DNA from: Mariniblastus sp.
GTDB lineage: Bacteria > Planctomycetota > Planctomycetia > Pirellulales > Pirellulaceae
Assembly: GCA_029251085.1 (NCBI GenBank)
Contig: JAQXDZ010000015.1
Location: forward strand, 1-64,000
Reading direction: 5' to 3'
DNA: 64,000 nt
Shown: in pieces, positions 36,264-45,854 of the stretch
Layout: each line of letters opens with the position of its first letter
How positions within the stretch are numbered: position 1 is the first letter of the stretch
Translations under genes and position numbers: made by a program
The notes under the pieces: model-generated
Told to the model about the DNA's origin: nothing
Seen by the model: only the letters and a program-made list of their open reading frames with translations
Databases searched by the model: none

Positions 36264-37748
36264 TCACTCAATTCCATTGGCTTTCAAATGCTCCTGAAAC
36301 CACCTATTAATAGGCTTTTTTTTGGTCGCTGCGTGGTACTTGGCATTTCGCGGAGGAAGTTCCAGTCGGAACCGGAAAATCAATTCTGCTTGATCTGGAT
36401 CACCTGCGATATTTTCCCATTCTTCCGGATCGAATTGGTGATCATACAGTTCCTCCGCTCCGTTTTCATATCTGATATATCGATATCTCTCGGTGCGAAG
36501 CGAGTGGTTCTTGCGAGCATAAGTGGTTAGCGCCGAAAACCTCCACTCCATCAATGGATCTTCCATTAATGGCACCAGACTCCTCCCTTCGTTCGAGGCT
36601 TTTGGGGGGAGACCGCACATGTCCGTCAGAGTTGGATACAGGTCTATTAATTCAACTGGCTTAAGCGAGCTCCGACCGGCAACCTTTTTACGAAGCTCAG
36701 AATTACCGGGAGGCAAAATCACGAACGGAACGCGTGTCGATTCCTCCCATAGACTATGCTTGCTTACCCGAGCTTTCTCCCCTAGATGATAACCATGATC
36801 AGAAAATAAAATCACAAGCGTATTTTCAGCGTACTCGCTCCGCTCCAGCGCACCCAATACCTTTCCAACTTGGTGGTCTACGAAATAATTACACGCCAAA
36901 TACGCTTGTACGCACTTCTTAAACTGTTCATTGTCATTGGCCTGTAAAAATTCGAGCGAGGGGTATTTTGGCAGTTCATGAATTTCCACACCAATCTTGG
37001 GAACATCTTCCAGGTCATCATTCGCGACCGACGGTAATACAATTTTATCAAGAGGGAATGGCGCGAACCATTTTTCAGGTACATACCAAGGCACGTGGGG
37101 GCGATTGAATCCAACTGCTAGAAAAAACGGGCGGTCATGTTCTTGATTCAAGACCTCACTCGCCCAAGCTGCTGAACGATAGTCTGGCATTGCCTCATCT
37201 CGATCGGGAAACGGCCCCCAATCAGTTTGAGTTCCCGTGTACGGGACGTCTGGCAGGAAATAATTAAACCTCTCGCCTTTCGCCGGTTTTGGACCAGATC
37301 CATCGAATTTACCTCCGTAATGATCAAAGGCGGTTTCGGGGCGGTAGCCGTGAGTCACCTTACCCACGCCAAATGTCTCATAGCCGTTGCCGGAGAAATA
37401 TTCGGGCAATAATTGGCCCTTGAAAAACTTCTTATCGCTCTCTAACAGGTTACTCGCAGGCTGCTGATAAACACCAGTCGTGTGAGGATAGAACCCGGAA
37501 AAGATTGATGCCCGCGAGGGACCACAGATCGGGCCCTGACAATGAGCGTTACCAAACAAGACGCCCGCCTTTGCCAAGCGATCGATGTTGGGAGTCATCG
37601 CCTGCGGATGCCCATCGAGACAACCAACCCAGTCATTCAAATCATCGACTACGATCATTAGGACGTTCGGGCGGGACTCATCCGCTAGAGCTTTGCCCGG
37701 CACCCCGCCGAGCCACAGTACAGAGATAAACAGCGTGATTCGAATCAT
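36264..37748 (-). CDS. Exported sulfatase, iduronate-2-sulfatase-like
   Basis: A 494-residue enzyme with a signal peptide (MIRITLFISVLWLGGVPGKA). The catalytic domain opens with NVLMIVVDDLNDWVGCL, with DD metal ligands and the DLNDW typical of iduronate-2-sulfatase-like family members. The formylglycine motif is canonical: ICGPSRAS with Cys at residue 75. The second metal site is in LFSDHGYHLGEK. It probably removes sulfate from polysaccharides in the periplasm. It starts 37 bp after the last CRTAC1-like gene and is likely in the same operon. Confidence 0.93.
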   Translation of the reverse strand: MIRITLFISVLWLGGVPGKALADESRPNVLMIVVDDLNDWVGCLDGHPQAMTPNIDRLAKAGVLFGNAHCQGPICGPSRASIFSGFYPHTTGVYQQPASNLLESDKKFFKGQLLPEYFSGNGYETFGVGKVTHGYRPETAFDHYGGKFDGSGPKPAKGERFNYFLPDVPYTGTQTDWGPFPDRDEAMPDYRSAAWASEVLNQEHDRPFFLAVGFNRPHVPWYVPEKWFAPFPLDKIVLPSVANDDLEDVPKIGVEIHELPKYPSLEFLQANDNEQFKKCVQAYLACNYFVDHQVGKVLGALERSEYAENTLVILFSDHGYHLGEKARVSKHSLWEESTRVPFVILPPGNSELRKKVAGRSSLKPVELIDLYPTLTDMCGLPPKASNEGRSLVPLMEDPLMEWRFSALTTYARKNHSLRTERYRYIRYENGAEELYDHQFDPEEWENIAGDPDQAELIFRFRLELPPRNAKYHAATKKKPINRWFQEHLKANGIE

Positions 37749-37785: not shown

Positions 37786-40416
37786 TCAATTTGCTGCCGG
37801 CGCGACCTCGGAGATCACGCAAACTTCGGTTTCATTTGGAGCCACTACAGTAGTATTGTTACCGCTCGGCCAACGAATTTCCAGTTTCGCAATCGAATCT
37901 CCAACCGGAATTCCAATGGAATGAGTCGCTGAGTTCTGGCTCGAAAACCCCTCGCCCGCTTGATTTTGAATCAAAATCTTTTTTCCGGATGAGTAGACCA
38001 CCAAAACTCGAGCACCAATCCCATCACGATTGCTCAAATTGTCCAAGGCCACGGCGGATGTGTTTCCACCTTTTAACCGAAATTGAAAGGGGCGATTCCC
38101 CGTCCGTACGGAAGCCATTTTGTTCTTGAATAATTTGAAGCGGGGAGCGTTAAGCGACATCAAAGCGATATCCTGCCAACCGTCTCGATCAAAATCAAGC
38201 GTTGCAAATGAGCGACCGTCAGCAATATCGTCAGCTCCACTGAGTAACGTTACATCCGTGAAGTTATCACCAAGCTGCAAGAACAACCGGTTCCGCTCAC
38301 GACCGCTAAGTGAATTACTCGTGAATTTCAAACCGTCTTCCGAAAGGTCACCGGACGCTTTAGGCGGCGCCCGGACAATCGTGTCATTGACGTATCGCTG
38401 GTGTTGCCAAAGGTCATTCGTTTTAAAGTCCTCTCCCTGTGTTGCATCTTCACGCACGACCGTGCGCCAGAGGCACGATCACAAGTCAACTTCCGTATCG
38501 ATCTCTGGAGGTGCCGTATAAAAACCAGTCGGCACATAAAGATCCAAACGTCCGTCATTATCAAAGTCAGCCCATTGCCCTCCATATGACCAGCCGACTT
38601 GATTTACGTGAAATTGATCATCTCCGGAACCGGCTCGCTGCTCAAATTTCCCATCCGAGTTAACGAATAGAAAACACCCGGCAGCTGCAACTTCAATTCG
38701 AGGGTCAACCGAATCAAGTTTTTTTATGATCCGACGACCTGCCTTGGAAAACATATTAGAAACATAAAGATCTAAATCACCGTCAGCATCAAAATCGCCA
38801 AATGACGCCCCCATTCCGAATCCGACCCCTTTATTTACCAGAGCGGATTCCGTGATCTCAACAAAAACCGGCTGGGCAGCTCCACGGGGAGTGTCGTTCC
38901 GTAACAAAGCGTCGGGAGCAAAGTCATTGCACACGTATAAATCGTCGTCGCCATCATTATCGATGTCCGACCACACAGGCTGGTAAGACCGACGCCACTG
39001 CGACAGGACATCGTCAAATGGCACTCGTTCCAAACGCCCATTACCTCGGTTCATCAATAACACGTTAGCTGTGCCCGCAGTCCCTATCCACTTTTCGCTC
39101 GCCGCTTGCTTTTCTAGGTAAATCTTTCGCTCTTTTTCGCTTAAAAAGTGGTGCTCGAAAGCCGTGTCCTTGTTACCCAACGGCGGATAACTGCTCATGT
39201 AGATATCAACTAAGCCATCCCGATTCACATCCGCGGCCGCTATTCCACTCGTAAAATATTGCAAATCCTTGCCGAGATCCGACTGCGAATCCGTAACATC
39301 CTCAAAAACACCTCCGTTATTTTGAAAATACCGGGCAGGCTCTAACGAATGCCCCATCAACAAGTCCTTGTCTCCATCATTGTCGAGGTCAACGAACAGC
39401 ACACAATTGACGAGAAAATCAACTTTTAATCCAACCGATTCAGCCACGTCAACAAATGTTCCATCTCCCAAATTCTTTAACATCTGAGTCGGCCCCCAGC
39501 GCGCCGTTAGGAAAATGTCATCCCAGCCGTCATTGTTAAAATCAACGACCGAGACCGATGGGTAGACGTGGTCCGACGTCATCGTCGTCCACTTTGAATA
39601 TTTATCTTCAGGCAACTTATAAACACCCGTCTGCGCCGTCTTCAAAATGATTTCATCCAAAAACGACCGCTGGGCATTTGCGAGCGAGTCGGGGTCTTTC
39701 AAAACGTCAGCCAAAACCTCCTCAAACAAAGGCTGCTTGGAACGTTCGATATAAAAATCTTCCTGAGTCCATTTCTTTAAGACCCAGTCCCCTGCTTCCT
39801 TGTGGAACTCCAACGACTGGTACGCCTTCAACCCATAAAGCCAATGCGAATCAGCCGATCCTGAATCCCCTCTTGCTTCGACCTTTGTATTTATGACGAA
39901 TACGTTTTCATCAACCTCAGAGAAATCCCCCGCGATGGCACCAAACTTCATTGTCTCCCATTGGGCTCCAATCGCCATTGCTGATTGCCACGGGTCAACC
40001 GCCGCTAATAAAGGAGTTTCGGCTATGGGCCAATGCCCGACTTCAACAAAATCAGCGTGGCTGGAATCCGAATGAAAGACCTGCTCAGCACTGGCATCCG
40101 CCAGTCCAGTCACGCTGACACATTCCGCCAATTCGGGTGAAAGCGGAAGTTGCGGATCCTGCGAGCGTTGTTCGTACCACGCGGCAATTCGGCTCAACCG
40201 CGGCGTCAAATCCAGAATCAGGTCTTCACTTTTGATCAAGTCACGGATAGTAGCCACTTCCGCAGGGTTGGTTTTTTCGGAAGGCAGATCAACCAAATCC
40301 TCCTTGTCCCCGACACACCCTTGATTCGTCACAAGAGCGAGCAGCACAATGGCCATCACACACATGAAATTTGTGATGGCAGCATATTTGGCAAGCACCG
40401 CTGACTGATTATTCAT
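37786..40416 (-). CDS. CRTAC1-like FG-GAP/ASPIC-UnbV lipoprotein with in-frame UGA (candidate selenoprotein, copy 3)
   Basis: Read through one UGA (38481-38479) this gene encodes 876 residues with Sec at 646. A conventional caller would split it into 38479-40416 (FG-GAP part) and 37786-38457 (ASPIC/UnbV part, from a GTG). The two parts are in the same frame, separated by UGA and seven codons. The N-terminus has a signal peptide ending near LLALVTNQGC. Then come a conserved SEDLILDLTPRL block and FG-GAP/VCBS repeats with Ca-binding-like DxNxDG loops (DFNNDGWDDIFLTARW, DLDNDGDKDLLMG, DIDNDGDDDLYVC). The junction is EVDL-U-SCLWRTVVRED. The C-terminal domain has NSLSGRERNRLF, DGIGARVLV and IRWPSGNNTTV, typical of UnbV. 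Its ATG overlaps the end of the upstream paralog by 8 bp. The function is unknown; an exported or surface protein is likely. Confidence 0.83.
38452..38467 (-). promoter_or_regulatory. Candidate bacterial SECIS hairpin, CRTAC1-like copy 3
   Basis: On the coding strand gcgcac-ggtc-gtgcgt forms an uninterrupted 6-bp stem (one G-U pair) with a GGUC loop, which starts 17 nt after the UGA. The GGUC loop and spacing match the E. coli fdhF-type SECIS (loop 18 nt after its UGA). Relative to the other two copies the fifth pair is A-U instead of U-U. Confidence 0.8.
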
Positions 40417-43021
40417 CGCCCACTTCCTCGATCGTCAAAATTTCAGAAATACTCGGTTTTAAGATCTCTGTTGTCACCCCCGAAGGCCAGCGAACGTCAA
40501 CCCGCTCAATCGAATCCCCCTTCGGGACACCGATCATTTTTACATCAGAATTTTGACTCGCAAACCCCTCACCCGCCTGCTTCTGAACCAACAATTTATT
40601 ACCTGAAGCAAACGTAATTAAAGCCGTTGCTCCAATTCCATCCCGGTTACTAAGGTTTGCGGATGCAGCCCCAGACCTTTGCCCCCCAATCAAACGAAAT
40701 CGAAACGAAGAATTCTCAGGATAGATGGTCTTCAGTTCGTTGCGGTAAAGTTTAAACCGGGGAGCATTCAGTGACATCATGGCAATGTCCTGCCAACCAT
40801 CCTGATTGAAATCCAACAGGGCAAATGAACGGCCATCGGCAATATCATCAACACCGCTGATCAAACTTACATCGGAAAAATTATCCTTGTGCCGCAGGAA
40901 CATCCTATTCCGTTCACGGCCGCTGAGTGAATTACTTGTAAAACCCCATTTTTGTTTTACTCGGGAACCAGAACCCTCCGTGGAATCTACTAAAACCCGA
41001 TTTTGATATTTTTGATTATCCCAGCGGGAATCATCGCGAAAGGAATCATCTTGAGAAGGATCATCGCGCACGACCGAGCGCCAAAGGCAAGATCAGGTGT
41101 CGACCTGCGTGTCGATTTCTTCAGGTGCCGTATAAAAACCAGTTGGAACATATAAGTCTAACTGACTGTTGTTATCAAAGTCTCCCCACTGCCCACCGTA
41201 AGACCAGCCGACTTGATTAACGTGATACTGGTCGTCCGCAGATCCCGCGGTTTGCGAAAATTTACCGTCGTCATTCACAAACAGAAAACAACCGGCCGCT
41301 GCGACTTCAATCCGCTCATCCACCGAATCCAACTTTTGGATAATGCGGCGTCCGGCTTTAGAAAACATATTGGACACATAAAGATCGAGGTCTCCGTCGC
41401 GATCAAAATCTCCATACGACGCCCCCATTCCAAAACCAAAACCTTTGTATGTCAAAACATCCGATGTCACGTCAACAAACACCGGCTGAGCCGCTCCCTG
41501 GGGCGTATCGTTTCTCAACATGGAGTCAGGAGCAAAATCATTGCACACGTACAAGTCATCGTCACCGTCGTTATCGATATCAGCCCAAACCGCTTGAAAA
41601 GATCGATGCCATTGAGCCAACTCTTCGTCATAAGGCACTCGTTCCAAACGACCGCCGCCGCGATTCATCAGCAACACATTCGCCGAACCAGCAAGATTTA
41701 ACCAACGATTACTGTCAGCTCTTTTTTCGAGAAATAAAGCCCGCTCCTCTTCGTTGAGGAAAGTCTGTTCAAAGGAAGCGTTCTCTTTATTGAGTGGCGG
41801 ATAATTACTTAAATAGATATCAATCAATCCATCTCGATTAACATCAGCAGCTGAAATCCCGCTCGTAAAAAACTGTCTTCCAATATCGGACTTCGCTTTT
41901 GTAACGTCTTTATAAATGCCGTCCTGATTTTCAAGATATTTAGCTGCCTCCATTGGCCGCCCCATTATTGCATCCTTGTCGCCATCGTTATCGAGATCAA
42001 CAAACAAAACGCAATTCACCAAATACTCTTCATAAAGCCCGATCTCTTTGGCGACGTCGACGTACGTGCCATCGCCCATATTCTTGAGCATCTGGGTCGG
42101 CCCCCATCGAGCCGTAAGAAAAATATCCTCTAAACCGTCGTTGTTAAAATCTACGACAGAAACCGACGGCAGAATATTATCAGAGGTAAGATTTGTCCAA
42201 GGCACGTATTCCGGAATGGGTAAAATAAACCCGCCCTTACTAGACGACTTCAAAATAATTTCATCTTTGAATGACCGCTGTGCATTGCTGAGCGTCTTCT
42301 CATCGGGAAGGACCTCACTGAGGACCTCGCGAAACAGAGGCTGTTGCGTTCGCTCAACAAAAAAGTCTTCCTGAACCCAACGGCTAAGTTCCCAATTTGC
42401 ATCGGATTTCTTAAAAACAATAACCTGATGAGCCTTCATGCCGACGGCGGCTCCAGAATCAGTGACCCCGCGCCCGTCAACTTTGGTGTGCATCTCAAAC
42501 TCGTCACGCTGGTCGTTGGTAAAATCTCCAGCAACCACGCCAAACTTCAGCGTCTCCCAGCCAACATTCAACCGCTTCGCAGATTCCCAAGGATTAACCG
42601 CAACGTTGGTCTCTTCGCCGATCGGCCAATGAATGATCTCCAAAAAACCAGGCTCGCTTGGGTCCGCACCAAACAACTCAGCTGGATCTCTATCCGCAAT
42701 CCCTACGAACGAATCGCAATTCTTAAACTCATCCGGCAATTCGTTTTTGAGCCCGGCAGAGTTCTCCTGAAACCAAGCGGCAAGCCCAGTCAATCGCGGA
42801 GTCAGGTCGAGAAGGAGATCCTCACTTTCAATCAGATTATCAACTCGCCGCTCTTCTTCGGTAACGACCGCTTGGCCTCCCTGTTTCGCCCCAACGGCCG
42901 GAGAGGAAGACTCTCTGCAGCCGGTGAAAGCCAAACCACCAAAAACTAGCACTACAAAGGCAACCCATCTTCTGCAATGAGTATGCTTGTCATTAGGCGA
43001 TTGAAGGGGCCATCGCAGCAT
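40409..43021 (-). CDS. CRTAC1-like FG-GAP/ASPIC-UnbV lipoprotein with in-frame UGA (candidate selenoprotein, copy 2)
   Basis: Read through UGA at 41095-41093 it encodes 870 residues with Sec at 643. Without recoding it would appear as 41093-43021 and 40409-41071 in the same frame. The signal peptide ends at a good lipobox (LAFTGC), so it is probably a lipoprotein. FG-GAP repeats (DFNNDGLEDIFLTARW, DLDNDGDKDAIMG, DVNRDGLIDIYLSNYP, DFDRDGDLDLYVSNM) fill residues about 270-635. The junction is QVDT-U-SCLWRSVVRDD. The ASPIC/UnbV domain contains NSLSGRERNRMF, DGIGATALI and VRWPSGVTTEI. The start codon stands one base after the UGA stop of copy 1, which implies translational coupling. No enzymatic activity can be assigned. 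Confidence 0.83.
41066..41081 (-). promoter_or_regulatory. Candidate bacterial SECIS hairpin, CRTAC1-like copy 2
   Basis: The coding strand reads gcgctcggtcgtgcgc. It has four G/C pairs, a U-U mismatch and a C-G closing pair under a GGUC loop. The loop begins 17 nt after the UGA at 41095-41093. The sequence is identical to that of copy 1. The unpaired U next to the closing pair recalls the bulged U of the E. coli element. Confidence 0.78.
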
Positions 43022-43022
43022 A

Positions 43023-45623
43023 TCAGTTCAACTCCTCAATCAAGGTAATCACTTGTCCATCGGGGGAATCGATAGTCGACATTTTTCCAGATGGCCACTT
43101 CACGACAAGCGAAACAACTTCGTCTCCAGCAGGCACTCCCACCGAGAGGATTCCTGAATTCTGGGTAGCAAACCCCTCTCCACATTGTTTCTGAACGATC
43201 ATGGTTTTGCCAGATCGGTATTTTACGTACACCTTCGCCCCGATCCCATCACGATTGGTTTTCCCAACCTGACCTTGAGCTGAGTCTGCAGAACCGCGAA
43301 GACGGAAACGGAGCGAGCGATTCCCTGGATACAAATCCTGCATTTGGTTCTTATACAATTTAAATTTGGGATTGTTGAGCGACATCAGTGCAATGTCCTG
43401 CCAACCATCTTGATCGAAATCAACGACAGCAAATGATCGCCCATCCGCAATATCATCTGCACCGCTAACCAACGTGACGTCGGCAAAGTTACCCGCGCTG
43501 TTTAAAAACAACCGGTTTCGCTCATTACCACTGAGTGAATTACTTCTGAAACTGAATTGTTGCATACGTCGCCCGTTGGGGTCACCCTCGGCAGGCATAA
43601 ATATTTCGTCTCTATACTTCTGCGTATCCCACGCAGCAACTGATTGAAACTCTTTCTCTTGGCTTGGATCTTCGCGCACGACCGAGCGCCACAGACACGA
43701 TCAGGTGTCAACCTCAGTCGCAATCTCAGTGGGGGCAGTGTAATAACCCGAGGGAACATAAAGATCTAATTTGCCATCGTTGTTAAAATCTGAAAACTGA
43801 CCACCAAACGACCAACCAACTTGGTGCACTCTGAACTCTCCCTCCCCACTCCCTGCACGCTGCTCGAATTCCCCGTCTTCGTTCACGTAGAGAAAACTAC
43901 CTTTCGTCGCCACATCGATCCGCTCATCGACTCGCCCCAATTTATCTGCAATTCGCCGACCAGCCTTCGAGTACATATTGGAAACGTAAAGATCAAGATC
44001 ACCGTCCTGATCAAAATCACCAAACGAGGCTCCCATTCCAAACCCTATGCCGCGATTGGTAATTGCCGTCTCGGTAACATTTACGAATACGGGGTGATCG
44101 GCGCCGACAGGTGTATCATTTCTCAGTAATGCATCGGGAGCAAAGTCATTGCAAATGTAGAGGTCATCATCACCGTCGGAATCAAAATCAGCCCACGCCG
44201 ATTGAAATGACCGCCGCCATTGAGACAGGTCATCATCGTAAGGCACCCTTTCCAGTCTGCCACCGCCTCGATTCATCAATAAGACATTTGCCGACCCTGG
44301 TAGATCGATCCAGCGGTTCATTGTCTTTCTTTTTTCGTCGTAGATCTCTCGTTCTTCGTTACCAAGAAAAACATCTTGAAACCGTAGAGACGCTTTATTT
44401 AAAGCGGGATAACTACTGAGATAAATATCCAACAACCCATCTCGATTTACATCCGTTGCGGAGATCCCGCAAACAAAATACTGTTTTCCCAAATCGGAAT
44501 GAGTCTTCGTTGCATTCTTGAAAACGCCCGACTCATTTAAAAAATACTTCGCCGGCTCCATTGGTCGACCCAAAATCGCGTCCTTGTCGCCATCGTTATC
44601 GATATCGATAAAGAGCGCACAATTCACCATGTACTCTTCGCGAAGACCAATTTCCTCCGCCACGTCGATGTAGGAACCGTCTGGCTGTTGCTCTAGCATC
44701 TGGGTTGCGGCCCAACGTGAGGTGAGAAACATATCATCCAGCCCGTCACCGTTGTAGTCGACGACAGCTACGGATGGAAAAACATGATTCGACGGCAACG
44801 CTTCCCAATCAGCGACCAAGGGGACAGGTAAAGTAATCTTTCCGCCCTTGCGAGATGACCTCACAATGATCTCGTCCTTATGAGACCGCTGAATTTCTTG
44901 CAAGGTCTCAGGATCTGCAACCACCTCGGAAAGTACCTCACGAAAAAGGGGCTGGGCTGACCGCTCTAAAAACAGATCACCCTGCAACCACTTCGTCAGT
45001 TCCCAACTTCCAGCCTTCTGCTCAAATTGAAAATCCTGATGCCCCTTCATTCCCCAAACGGTACCGGACGACTTTCCCCGGCCTTCGACTTTACTGTGAA
45101 TAGTAAATACGTTTTCACTCTCGAAGCTGCCGGAGAGAACGCCAAACTTCATCGCCTCCCACTCAACGCCAAGAATATCCAACGGCTTCCAGGGGTACGC
45201 CGAGTCAAGAGAGACTTCTTGTTCGATCGGCCACTCGGCTAATTCGAGAAACTCTGGGTACTTCTCGTTCCTCGCAAACAGCTGTTCAGCGTCAGCCACT
45301 GCAAGTCCTCGCACAGCAACTATCTCGCCAAGCTCTGGCGGCTTGGCCTCAGCACCGATCGCCCGCTCTTCAATCCACAACGCGATACGTTTCAGTTGCG
45401 GCGTAAGATCTAAGATCAAGTCCTCACTGGTAATTAATCCTGTGACACTTTGCTCGACCTCTGTTCTCAACTCTGCGCTGCCGCCTTCGACGTCGCTACT
45501 CTTTTGGCACGAAACGCAGCTCATTAAAAAGACTGTCAGAAGGGAGCAAAATGCCATCAGTCTCAACGCCGAGTGCTCATGGCACTTAAAGATTCCTTCG
45601 ACAAATTTTGAGTCAGAACGCAT
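43023..45623 (-). CDS. CRTAC1-like FG-GAP/ASPIC-UnbV lipoprotein with in-frame UGA (candidate selenoprotein, copy 1)
   Basis: Read through UGA at 43703-43701 it encodes 866 residues with Sec at 641. Without recoding it splits into 43701-45623 and 43023-43679. The ATG at 45623 is chosen over an upstream frame start at 45662 because AAGGA stands about 5 nt before it. The signal peptide ends at LMSC, a likely lipoprotein site. FG-GAP repeats include DYNGDGLDDMFLTSRW, DIDNDGDKDAILG and DFNNDGKLDLYVPSG. The junction is EVDT-U-SCLWRSVVRED. The ASPIC/UnbV domain has NSLSGNERNRLF and VKWPSGKMSTI, and it alone carries Cys in QKQCGEGF where the paralogs have Ala. It is the first gene of the operon, divergent from the lactonase gene across 231 bp. 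Its own terminal stop is UGA. Confidence 0.83.
43674..43689 (-). promoter_or_regulatory. Candidate bacterial SECIS hairpin, CRTAC1-like copy 1
   Basis: The coding strand reads gcgctcggtcgtgcgc. It has four G/C pairs, a U-U mismatch, a C-G closing pair and a GGUC loop that starts 17 nt after the UGA at 43703-43701. Codons between the UGA and the hairpin vary at synonymous positions among the copies, while the hairpin is nearly invariant. Confidence 0.78.
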
Positions 45624-45854
45624 TCGATTCCTTACTACTGCACATCTTTGTTCCCTTACCACTTTTTGACCGGCACCTCAGCAAATTATCAACTGCGTCC
45701 TTGCGACCCCCATGCCCTTGCGCATTGGAGCCAGTCCCGACGTCTCTGACCAGAGAAAAACAACCGCTGTTCGATTTTAACTCTACCACTGGATTAGGGG
45801 AAGTTTTCCACCTATCGTGTAGTGTGCTTTAGCCCTTGAAATTAGGTATACAAA

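Follow-up and report, generated by a model that had tools for sequence, protein, structure and literature searches.

Animal CRTAC1 and the bacterial proteins of the CRTAC1 family, also known as ASPIC/UnbV proteins, combine an FG-GAP propeller with a UnbV_ASPIC domain, and the same combination is found in the proteins described here. The animal protein is not known to be a selenoprotein. The function of CRTAC1-type proteins is obscure; the text of PMC12758564 describes a CRTAC1 family FG-GAP gene which adjoins genes of hydrazine-synthase-like subunits in some taxa. The present family differs in having a segment with U-S-x-x-W-R-x-V-V, where U is the predicted selenocysteine (Sec). It also shares two features with known selenoproteins. 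Bacterial selenoproteins with the motifs U-x-C, U-x-x-C and C-x-x-U likewise have the Sec residue near a possible resolving Cys or a thioredoxin domain, and bacterial redox selenoproteins likewise have a UGA codon with a hairpin downstream of it.

A recent inventory of selenoproteins (PMC13188914, 2026) contains 119 families and subfamilies in its Table 1. The names FG-GAP, CRTAC1 and UnbV occur in none of these families, nor did a term search of the main text of that paper find them. According to the preliminary description of this locus, no such family is known among the listed bacterial selenoproteins, and this holds for the 119 families of that table. Term searches of the open-licence literature, namely PMC9312934, PMC12013277, PMC9402790, PMC5029168, PMC1242214 and PMC4807772, did not return the domain names either, and Planctomycetes are unnamed in the searched text of PMC13188914 and PMC9312934. 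Table S9 of PMC4807772 is devoted to selenoprotein candidates of two planctomycetes and could include the family. According to the text of PMC12013277, its own search for selenoproteins leans on Cys homologues. Reliance of detection tools on such Sec/Cys pairs, which are a minority here, may explain why the family was overlooked.

The window, the whole stretch of 64,000 nucleotides that was analysed, contains three tandem CRTAC1-like genes of approximately 870 codons each on the minus strand between positions 37786 and 45662 (Table 1). The first of them perhaps starts at the ATG at 45623. Only one nucleotide separates the end of gene 1 from the start of gene 2, and genes 2 and 3 overlap by 8 nucleotides, so the spacing is operon-like. 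A sulfatase gene (36264-37748) follows on the same strand 37 nucleotides beyond gene 3 and may be part of the same operon. The operon neighbours (sulfatase, alcohol dehydrogenase, short-chain dehydrogenase, lactonase and ABC-F) gave no hint of a substrate. Judged by eye, the N-termini of the three products resemble lipoprotein signals.

Table 1. Positions of the CRTAC1-like genes and of the features associated with their internal UGA codons in the window
Feature	Position	Strand	Remarks
CRTAC1-like gene 1, read through UGA	43023..45662	-	first in operon; open frame from GTG 45662
CRTAC1-like gene 2, read through UGA	40409..43021	-	domain scan, predicted model, CRTAC1 match
CRTAC1-like gene 3, read through UGA	37786..40416	-	frame check, domain scan
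Gene 1 in-frame UGA, predicted Sec codon	43701..43703	-	
Gene 2 in-frame UGA, predicted Sec codon	41093..41095	-	residue 643
Gene 3 in-frame UGA, predicted Sec codon	38479..38481	-	
Gene 2 UnbV_ASPIC domain, 3' of UGA	40442..40639	-	domain scan
SECIS-like hairpin, gene 1	43674..43689	-	loop GGUC, one U-U stem mismatch; fails perfect-stem test alone
SECIS-like hairpin, gene 2	41066..41081	-	loop GGUC, one U-U stem mismatch; fails perfect-stem test alone
SECIS-like hairpin, gene 3	38452..38467	-	GCGCAC-GGUC-GUGCGU, full 6-bp stem

Each of the three genes is interrupted by an in-frame UGA at the same position, and each UGA is followed by SCLWR(S/T)VVR(E/D)D. The codons that encode the beginning of this segment differ among the genes only synonymously: Ser is tcg, tct and tcg, Cys is tgt, tgc and tgc, and Leu is ctg, ctt and ctc. 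The frames contain zero additional internal stops. The domain scan placed FG-GAP repeats upstream and the UnbV_ASPIC domain downstream of the UGA, in a single chain after read-through. On all of these points the preliminary description, which had been made from the sequence alone, proved to be accurate.

The genome contains further members of this family. Ten matching rows were obtained, which correspond to seven genes spanning the site, one front fragment of one of them and two matches that end short of the site. All seven paralogues contain a single TGA, in the same position; the four located outside the window are found on contigs C165 and C112, two on each. Together with the 116 database homologues that end at this position (see below), this recurrence exceeds what chance would give. 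Among 99 relatives, 74 have some family match, and at least 41 of their genomes encode a member with UGA, with at least nine copies in one genome (G031, G081). The collection of UGA sites gave 157, from which three off-frame false matches (L081, L142, L194) were dropped. The 154 distinct sites that remain, all gathered on having UGA, come from many assemblies, including the single-contig genome G025 of the same genus as the window, which has UGA members as well as a tRNA-Sec. The reading frame is conserved on both flanks of the UGA among homologues. A strict TGA-plus-motif pattern was found in 36 of 392 genomes of the phylum, while the reversed control gave 0.

A scan of named genomes extended the family to other phyla. 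At least 112 stretches were found, 80 of them listed by name, from Planctomycetota, Verrucomicrobiota (Roseibacillus, Akkermansiaceae), Latescibacterota, Acidobacteriota (Holophagales, Bryobacterales, Pyrinomonadaceae), Myxococcaceae, Archangium and Deltaproteobacteria. Among the matches listed, 113 of 114 sites are flanked on each side by at least 80 open codons or by the edge of the stretch. With over 150 related genes having UGA at this site, the proposed selenoprotein family would be a large one.

The RNA downstream of the UGA was analysed for a selenocysteine insertion element. According to the model given in the text of PMC13188914, the loop of the bacterial SECIS lies 16-37 nucleotides after the UGA, with G in its first two positions. 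An Rfam scan of the window gave no match. Since the 51-nucleotide segments after the three UGA codons fold no more stably than shuffled sequences (z +0.67, +0.62 and -0.88), codon and covariation tests were applied to the family. The statistics were calculated for 115 of the 154 sites, the other 39, which had been found with a pattern containing GGTCGTG, being excluded; the pair counts refer to the full set, including the pattern-selected sites. The codon choice downstream of the UGA is strongly constrained. GTC-GTG encodes Val-Val at +7/+8 in 88 of 93 cases, compared with 39 of 398 in the remainder of these genes (p 3e-59). An AGY codon specifies Ser at +1 in 74 of 99 cases (32% elsewhere), and 37 of 37 sites of the WRQVVS type use TCG for Ser at +9 (27% elsewhere).

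A hairpin was defined by a perfect stem of at least 5 bp and a loop of 3-6 nucleotides which starts at nucleotides 20-26 (the U of UGA being 1) and has GG or GU within its first three letters. Such a hairpin is present at 93 of 111 sites, compared with 18 under synonymous recoding (z 21). Individually, just 17% of 149 sites reach p < 0.05. In the WRQVV group (66 sites, some of them pattern-selected, with GGUC by definition) the element is GCGACA-GGUCG-UGUCGC, and each of the six stem positions is paired in 62-66 of the 66; the one pair that varies freely appears as AU, GU, GC and UA. The window genes are members of the WRxVV group, where 21 of 52 sequences lack pairing at the second stem position counted from the loop, mostly with U-U there. 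Taken singly, one of the three window genes has a perfect stem and two have the U-U mismatch. Sub-types with other residues retain the hairpin in different letters, for example, CGGCAA-GUU-UUGCCG and GGGCUGU-CGUGUC-ACAGCCC. At the level of the family, the hairpin positions agree with the bacterial SECIS model as given in PMC13188914.

The preliminary description proposed a search for selC, selA, selB and selD, and all four genes were found in this genome above the cut-offs: tRNA-Sec with 67.4 bits, SelB with 367, SelA with 593 and SelD with 255 bits. ARAGORN also calls the tRNA as SeC with anticodon tca. The open frame that contains SelD (G000:C164:3027-3935) has 738 codons, which far exceeds the 311-position model, so SelD may be a fusion protein.

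The family and the Sec machinery occur together. In the survey a tRNA-Sec was accepted above 60 bits, or at E up to 1e-10 for the phylum, and matches of about 50 bits, which are found in nearly every genome, were treated as tRNA-Ser-like. Among the matches listed, 36 of the 41 relatives with a UGA member have a tRNA-Sec above 60 bits; the five draft genomes that make up the remainder have SelB above cut-off, which is absent in all three control genomes without tRNA-Sec. In total, 39 relatives lack a tRNA-Sec above 60 bits: 33 were used in a survey of the junction, the five with UGA members were used in the SelB test, and G023 (71% complete) was excluded from both. Most of the CRTAC1-type matches listed for the 33 genomes do not span the U-S-x-x-W-R-x-V-V segment. 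The junction is spanned by just two of the matches listed: L087 carries Ala at the site, and L086, from genome G032, carries UGA. A second in-frame TGA lies 148 codons upstream of the site in L086, and this gene is perhaps decaying after Sec decoding was lost. Across the phylum, tRNA-Sec is present in 34 of 36 pattern-positive genomes and in 194 of 356 others (Fisher 6e-7), and the two pattern-positive genomes without it both have SelB. Of 18 named genomes tested, 15 have a tRNA-Sec above 60 bits and three have none over this value.

The preliminary description interpreted the UGA as a codon translated as Sec. This interpretation is supported by the Sec genes, the UGA column at 154 distinct sites, the frozen codons and the SECIS-like hairpin, from which we infer Sec insertion itself. 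The last two lines of evidence go beyond those of that description. The window genes and their relatives very probably constitute one new selenoprotein family. The internal UGA would be decoded by the genome's own SelA, SelB, SelD and tRNA-Sec, guided by the short hairpin just 3' of it. The resulting protein, of roughly 95 kDa, is predicted to be a CRTAC1 beta-propeller that is exported and resembles a lipoprotein.

The UGA could also be a true stop, with the FG-GAP and UnbV halves translated separately as subunits. The gene finders' calls do end at the UGA position in 116 of the 120 best listed of 5453 database homologues, and a GTG is located eight codons past the UGA. However, both the protein and the RNA are conserved between the UGA and this GTG, no clear purine-rich ribosome site is seen by eye ahead of the GTG, and the family members co-occur with the Sec machinery. 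The predicted structure also argues against two subunits. The model of the gene 2 product matches CRTAC1, and its propeller (model residues 226-769) uses strands from both sides of the predicted Sec, so that closure of the propeller is predicted to require protein from either side of the UGA. The predicted model of a long-form member has a pLDDT of 77. It is important to note that structural matches to other propellers were counted as shared fold only. We consider separate halves to be very unlikely, and many database entries probably hold just the two halves of a single selenoprotein.

The residue at the UGA site in homologues has to be considered next to this. A motif search gave 92 rows, of which 47 were kept by eye on the basis of protein position and context and 45 were dropped; the search also caught the unrelated WKGVPVMCGP site of ordinary CRTAC1 proteins. 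The site is occupied by Cys in five of the 47 non-UGA homologues (P0242, P0244, P0251, P0294 and P0296) and by S, D, E, G, A, N, Y, V, Q or H in the remaining 42. The Sec/Cys pair thus exists in the family, as a minority, and a complete absence of Cys from the site, as suggested by 0 of 13 in an early set, was rejected. The preliminary description expected Cys or UGA in this column and took any other content as evidence against Sec. The expectation was borne out by the 154 UGA sites and the five Cys homologues, while the other 42 homologues, with neither, count against it under its strict wording.

This tolerance of many residues might point to a different kind of read-through, by near-cognate Trp insertion, a suppressor tRNA or a reassigned UGA, in which the residue is not Sec. 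However, UGA also serves as a normal stop: it ends two of the three window genes and so has not merely become a sense codon. Among the uncut family genes, 52 of 119 terminate in TGA, as do two of 12 checked window genes. Reassignment of UGA was rejected on these grounds. The position of the hairpin matches the bacterial SECIS model in the text of PMC13188914, Cys is found at the same site in the five homologues, and tRNA-Sec or SelB is encoded in the genomes of the members, the exceptions being G032 and the three named genomes. Insertion of another residue is accordingly highly improbable. Recent nonsense mutations or assembly errors, which a draft genome of 171 contigs might suggest, have a negligible probability given the same codon in seven paralogues and at 154 sites in many assemblies, and recent pseudogenes are refuted by the spread of the family.

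The Cys residues around the predicted Sec suggest a function for the proposed selenoprotein family. The 51 members that, like the window genes, have the motif U-x-C with its Cys at +2 all lack a CxxC in the tail, while CxxC is present in the tail of 62 of 64 members without this Cys, counts which are uncorrected for relatedness, as are all the motif counts below. In the uncut part of the named set, CxxC occurs in 90 of 95 members without Cys at +2, and the single member with it has no CxxC. Neither feature is found in L044, L156 and L191, nor in L216, L231, L266, L274 and L290 of the named set. In a quick tree of 164 proteins the U-x-C members form two separate clades.

A thioredoxin-like C-terminal domain is present in each of the five long members scanned and resembles the TlpA/ResA/DsbE thioredoxins (TlpA and ResA models, all below cut-off); no NCBIfam model was above cut-off for the nine family members scanned. 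In contrast to those thioredoxins, the domain here forms the C-terminal part of a propeller protein, with a CxxC that seems to be linked to the Sec. Long members keep CxxC in 64 of 65 cases with UGA, in three of five with Cys and in 13 of 39 with another residue at the site, and the motif WCxxC is found in 38, three and none of them, respectively. Judging from these counts, loss of Sec is accompanied by loss of the thioredoxin site.

The protein is likely to be a redox enzyme with a resolving Cys or thioredoxin domain. The Sec at a helix start may act as the redox nucleophile; after oxidation it could be resolved by the Cys at +2 in the window genes and by the CxxC of the fused thioredoxin-like domain in the longer members. 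Our bet is that the substrate is extracytoplasmic, either a peroxide or a thiol/disulfide. With slightly less confidence, we favour a large overlooked class of extracytoplasmic selenoenzymes, namely CRTAC1 beta-propellers with one Sec and interchangeable resolving partners (adjacent Cys or fused thioredoxin), present in nine or more copies in some genomes across Planctomycetota, Verrucomicrobiota, Acidobacteriota, Myxococcota and Latescibacterota. If this is true, the class would account for one of the most frequent uses of selenium in the phyla named. They would add a widespread selenoprotein family on an FG-GAP beta-propeller scaffold to those in Table 1 of PMC13188914 and would give CRTAC1-type proteins a testable chemistry; a cultured relative, Mariniblastus fucicola, seems to carry a family member, as a database protein recorded under that name (P0075) ends at the UGA position. 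In four homologues (P0111, P0124, P0125 and P0126), Glu occupies the position of Sec and the tail lacks CxxC; the redox site was apparently abandoned in this clade.
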